Shown piece after piece: positions 50,044-61,901 of a DNA stretch of 64,000 bases. Where the stretch lies: positions 1 through 64,000 of the forward strand of contig JAADFL010000120.1 in the NCBI GenBank assembly GCA_013152945.1. The letters are read 5' to 3'. The DNA is from Deltaproteobacteria bacterium (GTDB lineage: Bacteria > Myxococcota_A > JAADFL01). The notes beneath the pieces are model-generated. The model saw only the letters and a program-made list of their open reading frames with translations, did no database searches and was not told where the DNA came from. The translations under genes and the position numbers were made by a program. Every line of letters starts with the position of its first letter. The stretch's first letter is position 1.

Positions 50044-53000
50044 CTACAGCAAACCTCCCCAACTCTCGTACCTACACCGGGGTTTCTTTGGTTGCTTGAG
50101 CTTCCTACTTCCCGAAGTGCCGGAAGAGAGCACGCTGTTAAGCCCGATCTCGCCGAAAGACGGCGTGAGAATCTGGTTCGGAGCTTCTTCCGGAACCACC
50201 ACTTTTGCCACTCCACCGGTTCCCGGCAGGCCGGTGCTGATGATAGCGGTGTTTCCTCCCACCAGCGTTCCTGCATGCATGTTCAGGATATTGACCCCGT
50301 AAAGGTAACGCAGCCATTCCATGCATCCAAAACCAGGGGCTCCTCCGACCACCGGCTCATTGGCAGTAAAATATACCTGCCCGAATACAACCGCCGGAGT
50401 ACCGGTGACCTTTTTGTTCGGCCCGAGGAGCAACCTCGAGGCACAGCATCCTGTTGTACAGTATTCGTCCGGGTCGCATCCCGCATCATATGGCGATGCC
50501 ATCTCACCGGTCATCTTGGATCGCAGGATGGTCTCGTTGGCACTGGACGGGCTGACCGTAGGTGAATAGGTATTCCTCAAGGCAAAAACCCATTCCTGGC
50601 GACCACGCCTGTTTGCCGGCAGGGGCCCTGTGGGCGTGCCCATATCCGATATGTCATCCGGGTTTCCGGTAGTGACCACCAGGATGACACTTCCATCTAT
50701 ATCGCGGACAAGGGCAGGTGCCACAACTATTGGCTCCCTGGATACCTGCCAGCCTGTGCCCTGGTACTGGTCCCAGAAATCATTCTGGCCGTCAGGTATC
50801 TGCCAGTACTGCCATGCAGGCTGGGTGTTGGCAGGATCAGCACGTATATACTTCTCCTGGGGACCTGCAGGGTCCCACAGGCCGTTTCTTGCTACCAGTT
50901 TGAAAAGCCTGCCTTCGGAATTGCCGAACCATATCTCCTTAATACTGGAAAAGGTGCCGGACCCGAGAGCCACAGGCTCACCTGTCAACGATTCACGGGT
51001 AAACGAACACTTGGTTGCCGGGCATCCTACACTGCCGCACCTGCACAGGCCGTCCACCTTGTCGCGCCATATAAGGTCCCTGGTATTCAAATCCACGATA
51101 TAGAAGTACTGGCCTATTTCCCCTGGCGTGTCTTCCGGCGCATAGCCGCCTGGAAAAGCCATTATTGGAATCTTGCCATCCCTTGCGCCGCCGATTGTCA
51201 AGAACAGGTGTCCGAGTAAAGGCTTGCTCCAGGTTATCCCGAGATTCTCGAAGCGATCCGTCTTGCCTGTTATTTTTTCATCGAAAGGTACATTTGCTGC
51301 ACCTGAGGCCAACCTGGGAGAGTACTCGCCTATGAAACCGGGCGGCTGGTTGTTCTGTAGCTTTGTAGCATTGGTAATATCCAGTGCCCAGTAACTCCTG
51401 CCGCCCCTGGTGCCGCCTGCAAGGACCCGGCGATACTCGTCGAGGCCCGGAAAATACAGGTCTTTCACGACCGGCGTGGCATCCACGTAAAAATGCTTGC
51501 CCTCGAGAAGAGGAACCTTCATCGGTTGCAGAGTCACCGGATTTATTTGTGTGTAGTAATCCTTGCCCTCCAAGGCCTGGTCTGTCCATATGCCGCTCAT
51601 TCCCGGCAGGTATCGCAAGTTTTTCAGTACTGAATACGGCACATAGCTCCAGAGTGCTCTCCTTGTCCAGGTGCCTGAATGTGCAGTCACTGCATCATCA
51701 ACCACGAATGCATGGACCTGGCCGTCTCCTGTTGCAACGAATGCCATTGTGGCATCCCTGCCGTCCGGATCGCCCGCATAGTCCTCAACAAAAGTCTGCC
51801 AGGCATCATCTCCTGCTCCCCGCGGCGGTCTGGCAATCACCACCTCTGAGTGCAACACCTCGCCCGGCAAGCAGTCGCCCCCAGCCGGCATGATACCTAT
51901 TCCAGCTTCTGACGGCCTGGGGCACTTGAGTCTATTGACAACCTTCTGTACCTCTGCATTTCTGGGCAACTCCATTATTTCGCGCAGCCTGTTGAAGTTG
52001 GCAGGCTGTGTAATATCCACAAGGTTCCAATTCGGGGGAAAAGCAGAATATATCGGCCTTGCCTTGGGAAGGCTGAAGAGTTCCCATGTACTTACTGTAG
52101 GGCCGTCTATGGGAGCGAAATATTCCCTGTTATTAACTGCATCGAATGTCAGCCTGACCCTCCTTCTTTTCATCTCGAGGCGCCAGGGAGTCTTGGCCTG
52201 CACATCCACTCCTGCCCCGGCTGAAGCGGTCTGCCCGATCCTGAACACCGGGTCCACTATGTAGTACAGGGGATCCACGAGCGGCCCTTCAGGGGCCCTG
52301 GCCCTTACCACTGCCGGTGGCTGGTGCCTTGCAAGAACCTGGTGCTCCAGTATGGGACGAAAAACCCTTTCTCTTATGGCATCCCTGACTTGCTGCACCA
52401 TTTGCCTGTCGTTCCATCCTTCTTGGCCTGCAACATCAGTAGTGCCGTGCTCCAAATCGACCCTGATATAGTTGGCGTTGTACGTTGCCGTGTAGTACTT
52501 GGTGACGTCAGTGTTCTCGTGCTCGATGGAACTCGTGTCGCCCGCGGTGTGCATAGCCGTAAGTGTCGCATTCGCCCCTGCCTGGCCCCTAAGTAATGTA
52601 TCCAGCCGGTCCTCTGTGTTCAAGGCGACCACGAAAGTCTTGACATGGAGCCCGAAGCCCTGGAGAGGGCCCGTGCCTTCCGCATTCAGGCCGGCAGCCA
52701 ACCGGCTGATGACCGTGCTCGAACAGTCATAGTTGCCGCATTCCTCCAAAGATGGTGCGCTGCCGGTAATCAGCAGGATATAAGTTTGCCTGCACGTCTT
52801 GAACGGATCGTTGACATCGGACAAATCGATCATGATCTGGGCATCTCGGAGCAGGGCCGAGAGCGGTGCCCTGCCTGCCAGGTTGTTCCTGAAATCCTTC
52901 CTCGTTCGCCGTCCGGTGTTGGGAGGAGTTCCCTGTACGTTCTGTCCCGATGCGGTTTCAGCCGCATCCAGTAGGGTAGCAATGATCAGGTCGTTTGTTT

Positions 53001-53973
53001 CTTTTTCCGATCTCTGGCAATTGGCTGTGTCAAAGCTCGCACACGTTCTTGGAACAACGTAGTTTCGTTCTCCATCCTTGGTGTACAGGCTTGCAAACGG
53101 CACGCTCAAGTACGCATCTGCACCATAATCGCCCCTGCCGTCAGTGAATCCCCATGCCCTCAATGGAAAGTCATTCCAGTCCCCGGGATCGTTGTCGAGC
53201 AACATGAGCCCGAACCTAATCTGTGAACCGAAGTTGTTGCCATTCGCAGTCTCTTTCCATCGCAGGAGTCCGTTGTCGTCGATCCGTACGGCGTCATTAT
53301 TTTGGTTGTAGTCGTAAAATCCCCTCCTTCCGTTTCCTCCCGAATAGATAGTTGCCCGTCTTATCATTGGCTTATTCAACCAGTTGGGTGCGCCTGCACA
53401 GGCTCCTGCGACTGCCATTCGGCATATAGGGAAAAAGGCGGTATTCGGACTCACCTCCGGCAGGACAGGCTGGGTAAAGTTGGCAAGCTGGTCGAAACCA
53501 TTGAACCTTCCTCCACCCAAAAGAGTGGCCGGATCTCCTATAGCGCTGTCGTCAGGGTACCTCATGCGCCATGGGTCGCCTGAAGGAGGGTCCTGGTAGT
53601 CGCCCAACAGGGCTTGTATTACGATATGGAACAAGGTGGGAACCCTGTCCGGGCCATAACGATTGTTGGGTGGTCCTCCACTCACGATTTCCTGTGGAGA
53701 ATGGAACCAAACATTGTTCCACTGCTGGTGCCAGGGTCTCCTGTTCATGGCAAGGCTGTTGTCAAGCAGAATGAGAACCTGGGGCTTATGGCCGTACTTG
53801 AAGGTCTCGTTTCCCAGGTTGCGCCAGTTGGACTGGTCGCTGAACTCGGGGATACCAAGTTCGGTCCACTGGGCATTTGCCTTGCCCGGCATTGCCGAGA
53901 CAAGCATGACCACGGCCGTTGCAAGTAACATCGATCTTGCCCCGGCCAATCTATTTTCCCGCCATCTTAACAT
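50044..53973 (-). CDS. pilY1: PilY1-like type IV pilus tip / adhesin protein
   Basis: 1,309 residues with a signal peptide (cleavage after KANA, residue 34). The N-terminal half holds a VWA-like domain opening VLILLDNSLAM; the usual MIDAS DxSxS is degenerate (DNSLA). The C-terminal half is the PilC/PilY1 beta-propeller with ATMAFVATGDGQVHAF, YVPYSVLKNLRYLPG and a LVVTTGNPDDI block. PilY1 sits at the pilus tip, primes assembly with the minor pilins and can sense surfaces or bind calcium. It closes the minor-pilin set, 219 bases after pilX. The ribosome site AAGGAG is present twice (see 53976-53997). Confidence 0.9.
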   Translation of the reverse strand: MLRWRENRLAGARSMLLATAVVMLVSAMPGKANAQWTELGIPEFSDQSNWRNLGNETFKYGHKPQVLILLDNSLAMNRRPWHQQWNNVWFHSPQEIVSGGPPNNRYGPDRVPTLFHIVIQALLGDYQDPPSGDPWRMRYPDDSAIGDPATLLGGGRFNGFDQLANFTQPVLPEVSPNTAFFPICRMAVAGACAGAPNWLNKPMIRRATIYSGGNGRRGFYDYNQNNDAVRIDDNGLLRWKETANGNNFGSQIRFGLMLLDNDPGDWNDFPLRAWGFTDGRGDYGADAYLSVPFASLYTKDGERNYVVPRTCASFDTANCQRSEKETNDLIIATLLDAAETASGQNVQGTPPNTGRRTRKDFRNNLAGRAPLSALLRDAQIMIDLSDVNDPFKTCRQTYILLITGSAPSLEECGNYDCSSTVISRLAAGLNAEGTGPLQGFGLHVKTFVVALNTEDRLDTLLRGQAGANATLTAMHTAGDTSSIEHENTDVTKYYTATYNANYIRVDLEHGTTDVAGQEGWNDRQMVQQVRDAIRERVFRPILEHQVLARHQPPAVVRARAPEGPLVDPLYYIVDPVFRIGQTASAGAGVDVQAKTPWRLEMKRRRVRLTFDAVNNREYFAPIDGPTVSTWELFSLPKARPIYSAFPPNWNLVDITQPANFNRLREIMELPRNAEVQKVVNRLKCPRPSEAGIGIMPAGGDCLPGEVLHSEVVIARPPRGAGDDAWQTFVEDYAGDPDGRDATMAFVATGDGQVHAFVVDDAVTAHSGTWTRRALWSYVPYSVLKNLRYLPGMSGIWTDQALEGKDYYTQINPVTLQPMKVPLLEGKHFYVDATPVVKDLYFPGLDEYRRVLAGGTRGGRSYWALDITNATKLQNNQPPGFIGEYSPRLASGAANVPFDEKITGKTDRFENLGITWSKPLLGHLFLTIGGARDGKIPIMAFPGGYAPEDTPGEIGQYFYIVDLNTRDLIWRDKVDGLCRCGSVGCPATKCSFTRESLTGEPVALGSGTFSSIKEIWFGNSEGRLFKLVARNGLWDPAGPQEKYIRADPANTQPAWQYWQIPDGQNDFWDQYQGTGWQVSREPIVVAPALVRDIDGSVILVVTTGNPDDISDMGTPTGPLPANRRGRQEWVFALRNTYSPTVSPSSANETILRSKMTGEMASPYDAGCDPDEYCTTGCCASRLLLGPNKKVTGTPAVVFGQVYFTANEPVVGGAPGFGCMEWLRYLYGVNILNMHAGTLVGGNTAIISTGLPGTGGVAKVVVPEEAPNQILTPSFGEIGLNSVLSSGTSGSRKLKQPKKPRCRYESWGGLL

Positions 53974-54192: not shown

Positions 54193-54780
54193 CTAGTGCT
54201 GGCTCCTGCAAGCCACTGGTTGCGCCGTAATGGTTCCTCTTGAAAACATGAGCGGCTGATCTCCTGTGCCCGGGGCCTTGCTCTGCACCAGGACATCCAG
54301 TTTCTGCATGCAGAATTTTCCATCCAGGGCCATTGGAATCTCAGGCCCGTGGTTGAAAAGAAACACGCTGTAATCATACCCTCCCCTTCCATGCGGATCG
54401 AAGGTGGGTGTGAATGCCCCCACAAAGTCGCGGAACTCTGCTGCAGACGTGAACTTGGGATCCAATGTGCATGTGCCTGCCGTGGCACTGCAGTTCAGGG
54501 CCGCCACCGGCGTACCCAAGGTAAAGGGATTATTGACCTCCCAAGACTTTTCCGCAAACTGGGACGGATTCCTGTCACACAATCCAACGAGTTGATTCAA
54601 GGCTCCTTCTGTAACCTGCTTTAGGAGTTGGGTCTCCCGCAGGTTGCCGGATGCCTTCAGCTCTGAAGTAGTCAACCTTACCGATACAAAGCCGACCCAC
54701 ACCATTGTGGAGATGAGCAGGACCGACACCCAAAGGGCATTGCCGTTCTCCTGTCTTTCGAGTCTTCTCAGAATATTCAT
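54193..54780 (-). CDS. pilX: PilX-like minor pilin
   Basis: 195 residues. An N-terminal helix (GNALWVSVLLISTMVWVGFVSV) preceded by a charged leader RRLERQENGN matches PilX, which lacks the usual Glu5. The globular part has three Cys, including a C-terminal pair. It is part of the pilus-tip initiation complex. ATG at 54780 has GGAG seven bases upstream and follows the pilW stop by four bases. Position between pilW and pilY1 supports the call. Confidence 0.78.
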   Translation of the reverse strand: MNILRRLERQENGNALWVSVLLISTMVWVGFVSVRLTTSELKASGNLRETQLLKQVTEGALNQLVGLCDRNPSQFAEKSWEVNNPFTLGTPVAALNCSATAGTCTLDPKFTSAAEFRDFVGAFTPTFDPHGRGGYDYSVFLFNHGPEIPMALDGKFCMQKLDVLVQSKAPGTGDQPLMFSRGTITAQPVACRSQH

Positions 54781-54784
54781 TCGA

Positions 54785-56275
54785 TCAACTCCCACTCCTA
54801 GGATCGATATTGGCGATAATATTGTTCAAAAATATCACGGTTCTGATCGACCTTACCCGCGCGAGTCCGTTACGATAAATCGGAGGTCCTGTTCCATCCC
54901 TTACAAGGTCGTATGCATCTATCGGCAAAACAGCGCCCGGAGGCAGCCTGGTCAGCCCCGGATCTTCATGCAATGTATGCCCGCGCAAAGATATCATGAC
55001 CGAACGCAAGCTCCACGGTAACTGGTCCCTGTAACAGGGCTGGTTGGAACTTGGATTCCAAGCGCATCCTGCGGGAAGCTCGGGGTCTATTCCCTCTGTA
55101 TCACCAAGAGGGGTTGCAAGTGGTGAATTTATTGCCTGGAGCGGCTGTGTCTGGTTCAAGGGCGGCACGGTGGGCAATGCCAGGCGAGGATCAGGCAGCC
55201 ATCCCCGAAGCCCGAGTCTCTGGTTCCTGTCCCTGGTTATCATGATGCTGAACCCGCTCGTGTTGGGATTGGTGGTATAGGGAAGCACATCCTCCATGAT
55301 ATCCGTACAACATGCGTTTATGGCATTGCCGGCCAAATCTTGTATGGGCGGGTTACAGGGCTGGCAGGTCGGACGCCCTACAAGGCAGGCATCCTCTACG
55401 ATTCTCCGGATACGCCAGACACTGACCTGGGTCCCGTCTACCGGGTTGATGGCATGATCGGACAATGGGTCGTATGGTCCTGGAACCTGGTACTCCTGGT
55501 AGCTTACGAAGTGCACTGGTGAAATCCTCACCATGTCGGTTTCGTATTTTTCTCCTGACAGCGAAATTGGGGGACTCATGGTAAGGTTTCCACCGGCTGT
55601 GGCTGTGGCTGTCAACCTGGAGTAAGCATGTGTCCCACCTGCCATTATATGCACCATCTGGTTGTTGCAGAACAACATTTGCCAGGGCTGCAACCCGCCT
55701 CCACCAGGTGCGCTGTAATACGGATTCACCCTGGGATCATTGGCTTCAGGGGATGCAGGATTGTTTATCATGCATCCAGGCGTACCAATACGTGCTCCCG
55801 TGGCCCCTCCCTGGTACGAAGCCGGGTAGCAGGCTAGTCCCTCGCCTGTCCTTGAACCCTGGGGATAATAGGGATAACTCGTTCCGCTGGCATAGTTGCC
55901 CACAAGGGTGATTATGGGCCCATCCGGATTCGCATCAGGAAACAAGTCGCCGGCAGATACCCTCTGGTTGTACATCACCGGAAGGGGAACGAAGTTTTCC
56001 AAGGTGTTCACGTGTTCCGCAGATACCACGGGACTCAACATGAAACCCGCCCGCTCGAAGTCGGCACGCATGATTTCAGTTGCGAACCTCAAGTTGGACT
56101 GGAGTTCCGCTACCTCCTGTTGCCTGAAAAAAGCCTTGGTGGTAGTGCTGAACAGGCCTACCAATACAGAGACTATAAGGGCGGATACGACCATGGATAC
56201 AGCGAGTTCGATCAGGGTGAACCCCTCTTGGCCGGAGCTCCTGAGCCTTGAAAACATATTGGACCATTCAGCCAT
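54785..56275 (-). CDS. pilW: PilW-like minor pilin
   Basis: About 496 residues, long for a minor pilin. The prepilin leader ends RSSGQEGFTLIELAVSMV, a canonical class III cleavage site with Glu5. The large soluble region is rich in Pro, Gly and Cys. ATG at 56275 has AAGGAG upstream; an ATG at 56296, overlapping the pilV stop, would add seven residues. It belongs to the fimT-pilV-pilW-pilX-pilY1 series. Confidence 0.85.
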   Translation of the reverse strand: MAEWSNMFSRLRSSGQEGFTLIELAVSMVVSALIVSVLVGLFSTTTKAFFRQQEVAELQSNLRFATEIMRADFERAGFMLSPVVSAEHVNTLENFVPLPVMYNQRVSAGDLFPDANPDGPIITLVGNYASGTSYPYYPQGSRTGEGLACYPASYQGGATGARIGTPGCMINNPASPEANDPRVNPYYSAPGGGGLQPWQMLFCNNQMVHIMAGGTHAYSRLTATATAGGNLTMSPPISLSGEKYETDMVRISPVHFVSYQEYQVPGPYDPLSDHAINPVDGTQVSVWRIRRIVEDACLVGRPTCQPCNPPIQDLAGNAINACCTDIMEDVLPYTTNPNTSGFSIMITRDRNQRLGLRGWLPDPRLALPTVPPLNQTQPLQAINSPLATPLGDTEGIDPELPAGCAWNPSSNQPCYRDQLPWSLRSVMISLRGHTLHEDPGLTRLPPGAVLPIDAYDLVRDGTGPPIYRNGLARVRSIRTVIFLNNIIANIDPRSGS

Positions 56276-56292
56276 GTTCGCTCCTTGTATTT

Positions 56293-57021
56293 TCATGTCC
56301 CCTGGAACGTGGTGAGGTATCCCCCTCCACCGGTCACCATGGTATCCAGGAGTACCATTCTCCTGTTCCACTCGTCTGCAGTTCCGTAATAATCCTTGGA
56401 GGCCGTCTCTCCCTGGTCCTTGTTGCTCCAGGATACGCGCAACGTAAGCCTTACAACCTCGTTGCTTGCATTTGGAGATGTTGTAAGGCCCAAAAGTTGT
56501 GCCCTGTACTCAAGTATGAAACGCCTGTTAATATCCTGTGCCACCGGATCTTTTAATCTGCCCTGCTCATCGAGCAACCACTGCCCGGTCTTGGTATCCT
56601 TCCAACCTGGAAGTGTAGTAAAATCCGGGTTGTCGAGAAATGTTGTGATTGGGCAAAATTGCTTGGTGTTGTCGCACCAAGGTATCGGAGGGGGAACAGG
56701 GTCGTTTTTCAGGGGAAGGTCGGGAAACACGTGCTGCCATAGTGCTCCGGGAGTATTCTGGAACAAGGGCTCCTGGCTTGCAAGCTTGGGATTCCATGCA
56801 GTGGCCCTTCGCCTCACGTCTTCGAGAAAGGCATTGGCCAGGTAGGATGCAGCGCTTATTTCCCTTGCGAACCTGTTGCTCCTGGCAGAAATGTAAATCG
56901 TCTGAAAGACCGCGGCCAGGGAAATACCCAACACTGCCAGGGCCGCGATGCACTCGACCATTGTGAATCCATCAGCCTGCTTCTTTCTTGAACGAAGACT
57001 GAACCCCTTTTTGAAAATCAT
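56293..57021 (-). CDS. pilV: PilV-like minor pilin
   Basis: 242 residues with a prepilin leader ending KKQADGFTMVECIAALAVL, cleavage after Gly and Glu5 intact. ATG at 57021 overlaps the fimT stop by 4 bp. It assembles into the tip of the type IV pilus with the other minor pilins. Confidence 0.85.
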   Translation of the reverse strand: MIFKKGFSLRSRKKQADGFTMVECIAALAVLGISLAAVFQTIYISARSNRFAREISAASYLANAFLEDVRRRATAWNPKLASQEPLFQNTPGALWQHVFPDLPLKNDPVPPPIPWCDNTKQFCPITTFLDNPDFTTLPGWKDTKTGQWLLDEQGRLKDPVAQDINRRFILEYRAQLLGLTTSPNASNEVVRLTLRVSWSNKDQGETASKDYYGTADEWNRRMVLLDTMVTGGGGYLTTFQGT

Positions 57022-57685
57022 GTGACTCCTCCCTGTCCGGTGAGCTTCATCGACCCCGTGGGTGATACGAACAATTCCCTGGGGTTGGGCATTAAGCTGC
57101 CGTCCGGCGCCAATAACTGGAACCTGAACCATACCTGGCTGGGCTCGAGCCTGCCACCGCCCACATCGAGGTACATCCCCGTGCCGTCGAACAACAAGTA
57201 AAAAGGTTTAGGCAACTGGGGAAGGCCTGGTGTAATCCTTGCGTCAGTCATTTGTACCGCCAGAATATTTCCCTGACTCATGGTGCCAAGGGAAAACTCT
57301 GTAAGCAACCTTCCCTTGCCTGCCACGCCTGCCCACTGGCTGTACCTCGCGCATTGCCTGTCCCTCAGGGGGACAATTGCAGGATTCAAATTGGGTGCCC
57401 ACACTTTAATATAACCGGGATTCGCCGTTGTCGATGTTCCCCTGTTAACCTCCACCGCCAGGCAATATGGAAGCCCACCCGAGGTGGATCTTGCCCAGAT
57501 CAGTACGCTCCTGAACTCGGCGACAGCCCTGTGAAGGCGATTTCTTACCAAGTACTCGTTTAAAAAAGGAGTCATTATAGCCGCCAGAACAGCTATCACT
57601 GCAACAACCACCATGAGTTCGATTAATGTAAAGTAAACCCTCTTGCTCTTCGGTGGCCTGAAATGGCTTTCTTGATAAAAATCAT
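57018..57685 (-). pseudogene. fimT: FimT/GspH-type minor pilin, frameshifted
   Basis: The ATG at 57685 has an ideal GGAGGAG site and encodes MIFIKKAISGHRRARGFTL, then hits a stop at 57623. Removing one copy of a 5-bp tandem repeat (TTTACTTTAC on the minus strand, plus 57628-57637) joins this leader to the downstream frame as GFTLIELMVVVAVIAVLA, a perfect prepilin. As it stands the downstream frame has Tyr instead of Gly before the cleavage site and no good start. The rest of the gene, with a GspH/FimT-like C-terminal domain, is open. So it is either a recent inactivation, a slipped-strand switch, or a sequence error. Confidence 0.8.
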
Positions 57686-57711
57686 GGATACTCCTCCAGG
57701 GGTATATTGTT

Positions 57712-57727
57712 AGCAATAATCACACCA
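57712..57727 (-). promoter_or_regulatory. Candidate sigma-54 promoter of the minor-pilin operon
   Basis: On the minus strand TGGTGTGATTATTGCT gives GG and GC spaced by exactly 10 bases, as required at -24/-12. The expected start site is near 57701, 16 bases before the fimT ATG. The regulator gene just upstream encodes a sigma-54 activator. Confidence 0.6.
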
Positions 57728-57853
57728 ACATGCACTTGCTTGCATATTTAACCCATATCCCGGGAAAAGTCAAAAAAGTCAATATAATAACTATGCCTTA
57801 CTCTGGCATGAACACCTATGCGAACGCTGGTTGGTAATGCAACTTTTTTCACA

Positions 57854-57876
57854 AGGTATGAAAACTTTTCATACCT
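57854..57876. promoter_or_regulatory. 23-bp palindrome, candidate upstream activator site
   Basis: AGGTATGAAAA and its exact reverse complement are separated by one C. It lies about 127 bases upstream of the -24 element, a normal enhancer distance for an NtrC-family activator, and 28 bases after the regulator stop codon. A hairpin terminator is less likely because no T tract follows. Confidence 0.55.
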
Positions 57877-57903: not shown

Positions 57904-59286
57904 TTATGTTATTCCATAGTCCTTCATCTTGTAAATCAAAGCCCTGTGGGATATCTCGAGCAACTTTGCAGCAGCAGTCTTGTTTCCTCCCGTTTTTTCC
58001 AGGGCCTTGCGTATCAGATCTTTTTCCACAGCCTTGACGGTTTTCTTTATGGACAACTCTTCGGGAGACAGAGGAAGATCCAAGGTTACACCAAGGCCTT
58101 GACCGGTAATTCTCTCCGGTAACGCCTCCCTGTCTATTTCTTTGCCGTCAGCGAGAACCATGGCGCGCTCAACAGTATTTTCCAGTTCTCTGACATTGCC
58201 TGGCCATGAATAGTTCAGCATGGCCTTCATTGCATCCTGGGTGAATTCCACATCCTTCATATCCAACTTGGTCTTATATTTGCCCAAAAAGTGCTCGACA
58301 AGGGTAGCAATATCTTCTTTTCGTTCTCTAAGCGGAGGCAGCCTAATAGTGAGTACATTCAGCCTGTAAAAAAGATCTTCTCTGAAACGATGTTCTTTGA
58401 CCTCCTCGGCAAGATCTCTTGCAGTAGCAGCGATGATGCGGATATCAACTGCTATTTCCTTTGTATCTCCAACCCGCCGAATCTCGCCTTCCTGCAGCAC
58501 TCTCAACAATTTTACCTGCAGAGATACCGGCAACTCACCGATTTCATCGAGAAACAGAGTTCCTTCGTGCGCCTCTTCTATCAGGCCTTTCTTGGTTCGT
58601 AATGCATCGGTAAAGGCACCTTTCAAGTGACCGAACAACTCACTTTCCAGGAGATTTTCAGGAATGGCACCACAATTTACAGCAACAAAGGCCCTTTCTC
58701 TCCTGTTGGAGTTGGCGTGAATGGCCCGGGCGAGCAACTCCTTTCCAGTGCCGCTCTCACCTTGCAATAAAACCGTGGTCTTGTAGTCAGCGACCTTCTC
58801 CACTGTTCTGAAAATCGCTTGCATGACGTTTGACCTGCCGACGATGTTGTCAAAGGACAGTTCCCTGATTACCTGGCTCTTGAGCCTTTCGTTCTCCTGT
58901 CTAAGTTGTTCCCTTTCATCCGCCTGTTTGAGCCGGCGCAGAATTTCTTCAGGTTTTACAGGCTTTTGAACATAGTCCTTGGCTCCAAGCGACAGGCTCT
59001 TGAGGGCAATGTTCACATTCCCATAGGCGGTCATTAGTATGAAAATAATGTCTCTGGTCCTGGCGCCGAGGGCCTGGAGCAGTTCGATACCATCCATTCC
59101 CGGCATCATGAGATCGCAAATAACATATCTGAATGACTCGCTGTTCAACATGTCCAGAGCCTTCTTGCCATCTTCGGCCTGGCTAACTTCGAATCCCTCT
59201 TGGGTGAAGAATATGCTGAGCATGTGCCTTGCATTTTCCTGGTCTTCGACTATAAGCATCTTTTTTTGTTGGGGTTTATCTTCCAT
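57904..59286 (-). CDS. NtrC-family response regulator, PilR-like
   Basis: 460 residues. An N-terminal receiver domain with phosphorylation site Asp58 (CDLMMPGMDG), then a sigma-54-activating AAA+ domain with Walker A GESGTGKE at 176-183, the loop GAFTDA (usual GAFTGA) at 223-228, Walker B FLDEIGEL, and a C-terminal Fis-type HTH (GGNKTAAAKLLEI). It should activate RNA polymerase-sigma-54 at nearby promoters when phosphorylated. ATG at 59286 matches the family start. No cognate histidine kinase is adjacent. The order regulator, palindrome, -24/-12 promoter, fimT suggests it controls the minor-pilin operon. Confidence 0.88.
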   Translation of the reverse strand: MEDKPQQKKMLIVEDQENARHMLSIFFTQEGFEVSQAEDGKKALDMLNSESFRYVICDLMMPGMDGIELLQALGARTRDIIFILMTAYGNVNIALKSLSLGAKDYVQKPVKPEEILRRLKQADEREQLRQENERLKSQVIRELSFDNIVGRSNVMQAIFRTVEKVADYKTTVLLQGESGTGKELLARAIHANSNRRERAFVAVNCGAIPENLLESELFGHLKGAFTDALRTKKGLIEEAHEGTLFLDEIGELPVSLQVKLLRVLQEGEIRRVGDTKEIAVDIRIIAATARDLAEEVKEHRFREDLFYRLNVLTIRLPPLRERKEDIATLVEHFLGKYKTKLDMKDVEFTQDAMKAMLNYSWPGNVRELENTVERAMVLADGKEIDREALPERITGQGLGVTLDLPLSPEELSIKKTVKAVEKDLIRKALEKTGGNKTAAAKLLEISHRALIYKMKDYGIT

Positions 59287-60502: not shown

Positions 60503-60590
60503 TACCGGATTGTTTGGTGTAAAATAATGACTCGAGAATAATTTCACAAAGCATGGTGTGGCTTTGGGTCAAGCGCCAGGGAGAAGCAAG

Positions 60591-61901
60591 ATGAAACATA
60601 TCAAATTCCAGATCCTTCTTTCGCTCATTGGATTGCCGGCCTTTATCTTTGCAGCATTTCTGTCTTTGCACTGTTCCAACAATGGTCAATCAAGGCAAGG
60701 TGATACCGACACTGATACTGATACCGATATGGATATTGACATTGATATTGATATCGACACCGATACCGATACGGACACGGACATTGATATCGATACTGAT
60801 ACTGACACCGACACGGACACGCAGGAGCCTTCTTGTGCATCCCTTGGAGGGTATTGCGCCTTGCACAAAGGAGAATGCAGGTCAGGATACATTGTTTCAA
60901 AAGATGATTACGATTGTCCAAAGACCTGCTGCTTGCCTGAAGGCGGAGATACAGACATAGATACGGATACCGATATGGACACAGACATGGACATTGATGT
61001 CGATACCGACACTGATACTGACACTGATACCGGCACTGACACCGGCACTGATACCGGCTCTGATACCGGCTCTGATACCGGCACCTCTGCTTCGTGCGAC
61101 GGTATTACATGTTCAGGCCATGGCAAGTGCACGCTCGATCCTTTTTTACAAACCCCGCGCTGCATCTGCGACGATGGTTATCACGCGCAGGGTTTGAACT
61201 GTCTTTCGGATGCCGACTCTTGCGCGGGTATAGACTGCTCGGGCCATGGAACATGCAAGGTCAACCAGTCCAATCATTCTGCATACTGTGATTGTGAACA
61301 AGGATACGTTGCAGTAGGTCTCGACTGCATCGAACAGGACAAGGTTTGCCAGGGAGTAGACTGCTCGGGCCATGGAACATGCTGGGCCTGGGGAGGCAAA
61401 CCGGTTTGCGGTTGCGATGAAGGATATACCCCTTCGAGAAAAGACGGGCTCGATTGCGTACCCACGAGCCAGGTCTGCAAGGGTGGAAAAATCGATTATG
61501 ATGTCGACGGAGACGGTGTGAACGAGACTTACTTCGAACCCAGTGACGATGAATGCTTCATGTACGAACTCGTCAACTACACCCGGGCAACGAGCGACGA
61601 CGAGGGTCACCCGGAGTGCCACACGCCTTTGGCATGGGACGTCCTGTGGGCAGCTCACGGCCGGAACCATTCCAAGAAGATGTCCGAGGCAGGACATCTT
61701 TTTCACGAAGATTTTCCGTACGGCCAAAACTGCGCCCGGGGCTGTGACCCCAAGTGTGAAATGAACCTATACATGTCAGGATCGAACGAGCCTCATTGCC
61801 CGGAATTGTCACATCACTGTAATATCATGCGTTGTTCATTCAGCCACCTGGGAGTCGGCTATTACAACCCTGGATACTGGAATACACAGAATTTTTACTG
61901 A
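60591..61901 (+). CDS. Surface lipoprotein with Asp/Thr repeats, EGF-like and CAP domains
   Basis: 436 residues. A signal sequence ends LSLHC (Cys28), a lipoprotein-like motif with an unusual His before Cys. Two stretches of Asp alternating with Thr, Ile, Met or Gly (about 39-78 and 121-165) flank a Cys-rich module and probably form extended, calcium-binding spacers. Three EGF-like modules follow (around 170-290, each with CSGHG), then a C-terminal CAP/SCP-like domain: YELVNYTRA, PLAWDVLWAAHGRNHSKKM and NIMRCSFSHLGVGYYN. This architecture is typical of myxobacterial and related surface proteins. ATG at 60591 has AGGGAGAA upstream. Confidence 0.85.
   Translation: MKHIKFQILLSLIGLPAFIFAAFLSLHCSNNGQSRQGDTDTDTDTDMDIDIDIDIDTDTDTDTDIDIDTDTDTDTDTQEPSCASLGGYCALHKGECRSGYIVSKDDYDCPKTCCLPEGGDTDIDTDTDMDTDMDIDVDTDTDTDTDTGTDTGTDTGSDTGSDTGTSASCDGITCSGHGKCTLDPFLQTPRCICDDGYHAQGLNCLSDADSCAGIDCSGHGTCKVNQSNHSAYCDCEQGYVAVGLDCIEQDKVCQGVDCSGHGTCWAWGGKPVCGCDEGYTPSRKDGLDCVPTSQVCKGGKIDYDVDGDGVNETYFEPSDDECFMYELVNYTRATSDDEGHPECHTPLAWDVLWAAHGRNHSKKMSEAGHLFHEDFPYGQNCARGCDPKCEMNLYMSGSNEPHCPELSHHCNIMRCSFSHLGVGYYNPGYWNTQNFY
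60700..60826 (+). repeat. Low-complexity hexamer repeats encoding Asp-Thr runs
   Basis: Imperfect units of the type GATACC/GACACT, encoding Asp-Thr and Asp-Ile, fill this tract. A second tract of the same kind occupies about 60950-61085, ending in GGC units that give Gly. Such arrays change length easily by slippage in steps of six bases, which keeps the frame. Confidence 0.8.

Follow-up and report, generated by a model that had tools for sequence, protein, structure and literature searches.

Assembly of type IV pili is primed by minor pilins and PilY1, which form the pilus tip. In Pseudomonas aeruginosa, the two-component system AlgZ/FimS-AlgR reportedly controls the minor-pilin operon fimU-pilVWXY1; unlike the regulator described here, AlgR is not known to be a sigma-54 activator. 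A link of the minor pilins with FimS-AlgR has been published (PMC5979040), and a paper on the priming complex did not treat the transcription of the complex (PMC7541494). In Myxococcus xanthus, the NtrC-like HsfA binds the pilY1.1 and pilY1.3 promoters (PMC9109919) and is thus, as proposed for the regulator considered here, an NtrC-like protein acting directly on pilY1/minor-pilin promoters, but HsfA of the HsfB-HsfA system works in a phosphorelay with a hybrid kinase, has several unrelated gene targets, and raises one cluster and lowers another. Besides PilSR, the same species has another NtrC-type two-component system that is associated with type IV pilus genes, PilS2-PilR2 (PMC6060248, PMC6211767): pilR2S2 is part of the pil cluster (PMC6060248), and pilus-dependent motility requires PilR2 in a manner independent of PilR (PMC6211767). 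No target motif of PilR2 was found in the papers searched. In the control of pilA by PilS-PilR, as at our locus, an NtrC-type activator goes with a sigma-54 promoter before a pilin gene, but the target is the major pilin.

The window, that is, the whole stretch of 64,000 nucleotides that was analysed, carries in succession an NtrC-type regulator gene, a palindrome, a -24/-12 element and a minor-pilin operon. Comparison with several dozen related genomes indicates that the palindrome is very likely an enhancer and the element a sigma-54 promoter, both of them conserved, and that the adjacent regulator most likely uses them as a switch for the operon of the pilus tip. A description of this enhancer motif was not found in the literature searched, which is not a proof of novelty.

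The proposed control region and the minor-pilin operon

The element TTGGTGTGATTATTGCT (57728-57712, minus strand; GG at 57726-57725 and GC at 57714-57713) has 27 nt between its GC and the fimT ATG (57685), so that the GG-N10-GC element lies where the original prediction had placed it. A ribosome-binding site GGAGGAG (57691-57697, minus strand) precedes the ATG, and the fimT transcript is predicted to start near 57701. By itself the element is unremarkable, as 22 sites in the window, itself counted, reach its consensus score or more; its weight comes from its position and its conservation, and together with the latter it qualifies as a sigma-54 promoter whose start is placed by prediction. Its -24 box lacks the consensus CAC. 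An ATGCA-N6-TGCAT inverted repeat (57733-57752) was also seen immediately upstream of the -24 element. In the interval from the regulator gene to the promoter there is, in addition, a weak terminator-like hairpin with a T-rich tail (57793-57809, minus strand).

The palindrome AGGTATGAAAACTTTTCATACCT (57854-57876) reads AGGTATGAAAA-C-TTTTCATACCT. It had been described as near-perfect; its length of 23 bp was right, and its arms are in fact perfect (11+1+11). The regulator gene ends 27 bp before it, in agreement with the claim that the palindrome comes right after the gene of a sigma-54 activator. When the 221-bp gap was shuffled 3000 times with its dinucleotides preserved, an 11-bp arm never arose, and among the inverted repeats of the window the palindrome alone has arms of at least 10 and a spacer of at most 12. 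We propose it as the enhancer and a putative dimer site of the regulator. It lies 137 bp from the -24, farther than in most relatives. A degenerate sequence, TTGTGAAAAAAGTTGCATTACC (57833-57854, minus strand), might, speculatively, be a second dimer site; its centre is about 20 bp from that of the palindrome, though it keeps core bases only and falls under the reporting cut-off of the half-site model (below), and no convincing second site was found beside the palindrome in the control region of the window.

The operon on the minus strand runs in the order fimT, pilV, pilW, pilX and pilY1-like. The pilV-like gene (56293-57021) has a prepilin motif and a weak match to TIGR02523, and the pilW-like gene (54785-56371, limits of the open frame) has the N_methyl domain PF07963. 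The pilX-like gene (54193-54795) is named from its operon position and N-terminal segment only, as no family match was found. The pilY1-like product (50044-53973) has no direct match to PF05567 (PilY1), but it aligns at 22-23% identity with proteins of relatives that match PF05567 at 2e-13 to 3e-21; the names pilX and pilY1 derive from gene order together with the resemblance to relatives whose PilY1 matches PF05567. The fimT-like gene (57018-57685) is frameshifted: because TTTAC is tandemly duplicated (5 bp) at 57637-57628, the frame from the ATG stops after MIFIKKAISGHRRARGFTLH, the prepilin signal is put out of frame and the pilin sequence resumes in another frame. This duplication may be a strain variant, a sign of decay or an assembly error. 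The frames of the other four genes are fully open.

The regulator and its relation to PilR and PilR2

The regulator (57904-59286, minus strand; 460 aa) passes the Pfam cut-offs for a receiver (PF00072), a sigma-54 AAA+ domain (PF00158) and a Fis-type HTH (PF02954), which places it in the NtrC family. Its sequence contains the receiver Asp within ICDLMMPG, and its recognition helix ISHRALLYKIK is conserved across its clade. Its loop is GAFTDA instead of GAFTGA, and in the clade 57 members have GAFTDA and 32 have GAFTGA. Identity with AtoC (NCBIfam NF008469) was rejected, since 490.7 bits is below the curated cut-off of 714. The genome has rpoN and encodes at least 24 NtrC-family matches.

The genome has a separate canonical pilC-pilS-pilR-pilA-like locus (L060, contig C192), which makes the regulator an additional PilR-like protein. 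In the tree, a 96-member clade with a modest node support of 0.75 includes the regulator and leaves out both the pilS/pilA-linked PilR of its own genome and similar proteins. As far as sequence tells, therefore, the regulator is a member of a separate PilR2-like clade and not the canonical PilR of the genome, and the name "PilR-like" of the original prediction is to be refined accordingly. At the canonical locus, a sigma-54-like ATGGCACATAATTTGCT was observed 5' of the first pilin, but an enhancer motif of the kind in the window is absent upstream of pilA there.

In relatives, the orthologue is commonly found next to pilM or after pilD and a histidine kinase gene, which we take to be the position of PilR2 in Myxococcus xanthus. 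It thus has the neighbours of PilR2, and the likeness to PilS2-PilR2 rests on these gene neighbours; unlike that system, the gene in the window lies next to the minor-pilin operon, with no kinase gene linked to it. As a candidate partner, the best match in its own genome was an orphan kinase (contig C53, 37% identical), which was not convincing. On the other hand, one histidine kinase family occurs in several relatives directly upstream of fimT or convergent on the regulator, suggesting a complete two-component module. In six loci (L045, L048, L059, L123, L134, L139) a histidine kinase gene on the same strand ends just before the fimT promoter, and this kinase is likely the partner of the regulator.

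Conservation of the two elements in the phylum

Of 379 genomes of the phylum, 203 have close relatives of the regulator (E 1e-128), and minor-pilin genes lie within about 9 kb of it, on the same strand or convergent, in about 18 of the 103 loci inspected. We analysed 15 relatives of the phylum with a clear fimT and the operon near the regulator orthologue. A -24/-12 element is present 5' of fimT in all 15 and in the window, with a mean best score of 10.0 out of 12 (window included) against 4.5 +/- 0.75 in random draws. In four loci of one family (L031, L106, L110, L111) the match lies within the fimT leader and is doubtful, but the result holds without them (11 relatives and the window).

A motif search upstream of these elements, with the window left out and seeds taken from random positions, yielded a palindromic motif mostly about 100-105 bp upstream of the -24. 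Modelled on relatives only, the repeat consists of two inverted half-sites, TT[TG]C[AG]NA[GC], in which the conserved G and C lie 10 or 11 bp from each other. It is found mostly 82-105 bp upstream of the -24, and the model reaches a log-likelihood of 121.6, compared with 42.5 at most in shuffled sets. Pairs of sites 19-20 bp apart are frequent in relatives. Under the relatives-only model, the palindrome is the best-scoring site of the whole window (15.7 bits; runner-up 14.8). The central C is invariant in all 46 half-sites of 23 sites pooled from other genomes, and every position of the window half TTTTCATACC is a letter observed among the pooled half-sites. The test set with the original prediction, whether relatives keeping the operon lack the palindrome, was run, and the inverted repeat was found conserved with the promoter before fimT. 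Such a dimer site upstream of the -24 and conserved with the promoter has the properties of an enhancer. With the half-site model, no convincing site was found before other genes of the window operon or before pilM in relatives.

The pair of site and promoter was also found in a held-out fimT locus (L116) and directly before pilY1 in five further held-out loci (L046, L048, L121, L123, L124), so that here the same regulator may drive pilY1 from a separate promoter. Moreover, the pair precedes operons unlinked to the regulator in six loci (L148, L149, L152, L153, L154, L155), with a weaker match in L156, while none was found before a pilin in L146, L150 and L151. Among PilY1 loci away from the regulator, sampled from genomes with and without it at a fixed, arbitrary presence threshold, the coding strand carries the pair in 14 of 21 where the regulator is present versus 2 of 22 where it is absent (Fisher p about 1e-4, with counts that are less than independent because of shared ancestry); the antisense control gave 0 and 2, respectively. 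Both exceptions among the genomes lacking the regulator have the pair near the pilY1 start and may be genomes whose regulator fell under the threshold. The pair is missing in some genomes with the regulator. The predicted order of regulator, enhancer, promoter and target operon is thus borne out in that both elements are conserved before minor-pilin operons, linked to the regulator or not, and the pair is rare without the regulator. The site and promoter, widely conserved in the phylum, appear to be those of a PilR2-like regulator other than canonical PilR.

Alternative explanations and the proposed regulon

The palindrome might be an enhancer of this promoter that is bound by another NtrC-family protein, such as canonical PilR or an HsfA-like regulator, the adjacent gene being there by chance. 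The many NtrC-family matches in the genome leave room for such a protein, and in M. xanthus a different NtrC-like regulator, HsfA, does bind the pilY1.1 and pilY1.3 promoters (PMC9109919). However, the clade of the adjacent regulator is repeatedly linked with the operon, the pair is rare where this clade is missing, and the canonical pilA of the genome has no such site upstream. We therefore consider binding by another protein unlikely, and the adjacent regulator remains the preferred user of the palindrome.

Less probable still is that this organism is losing the operon through decay and keeps its control region as a relic: the 5-bp duplication does break the fimT frame in the prepilin signal, but pilV, pilW, pilX and pilY1 are fully open, the palindrome is perfect, and a single small duplication in a metagenome assembly may equally reflect strain variation or faulty assembly. 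The palindrome might also serve at the 3' end of the regulator transcript as a hairpin or terminator and not as a protein site, since the RNA on the strand of the regulator folds well (-16.2 kcal/mol, z -4.6). This explanation is nevertheless very improbable, because no T-run follows the palindrome, a terminator scan makes no call, and the conserved motif stays with the promoter before fimT regardless of where the regulator gene is, also in relatives in which this gene is convergent or unlinked.

In the genome itself, the palindrome arms with up to two mismatches gave one exact site, and the two-mismatch matches (17 versus 12 in the control) barely exceeded the control, so no wider regulon is seen there. 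A relaxed consensus of the relatives, written when both the relatives and the window were already known, has three exact sites in the genome; only that of the window is in a promoter, and the other two are within coding sequence.

For the enhancer and promoter, most likely used by the adjacent regulator, we propose the mechanism that is usual for NtrC-type activators, in which a histidine kinase, encoded at an unlinked site in this genome, would phosphorylate the NtrC-type regulator encoded next door, whose HTH dimer would bind the 23-bp palindrome and whose AAA+ domain would activate sigma-54 RNA polymerase at TTGG-N10-GC. Transcription of fimT-pilV-pilW-pilX-pilY1 would then supply the priming and tip complex. 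We lean somewhat toward extending this to a phylum-wide two-component regulon, in which the PilR2-like sigma-54 activator mainly controls the priming/tip complex, apart from PilS-PilR and the major pilin, and which would cover the fimT operon plus an additional promoter before pilY1 in several families. If so, pilus initiation and tip identity would be set separately from filament supply. The reading suggests what the second, little-understood pilus regulator controls, a concrete and testable target, and the motif can be sought in any member of the phylum.

Two other genes were observed in these regions. The clusters of five relatives (L042, L045, L046, L048, L059) have an extra gene of about 285-340 codons with a lipoprotein- or membrane-anchor-like N terminus, located past pilY1 or in the stretch that separates the pilin operon from the regulator. 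In the window, 60558-61901 encodes a protein that is predicted to be secreted and has EGF-like cysteine motifs as well as long Asp-Thr/Asp-Ile repeats.
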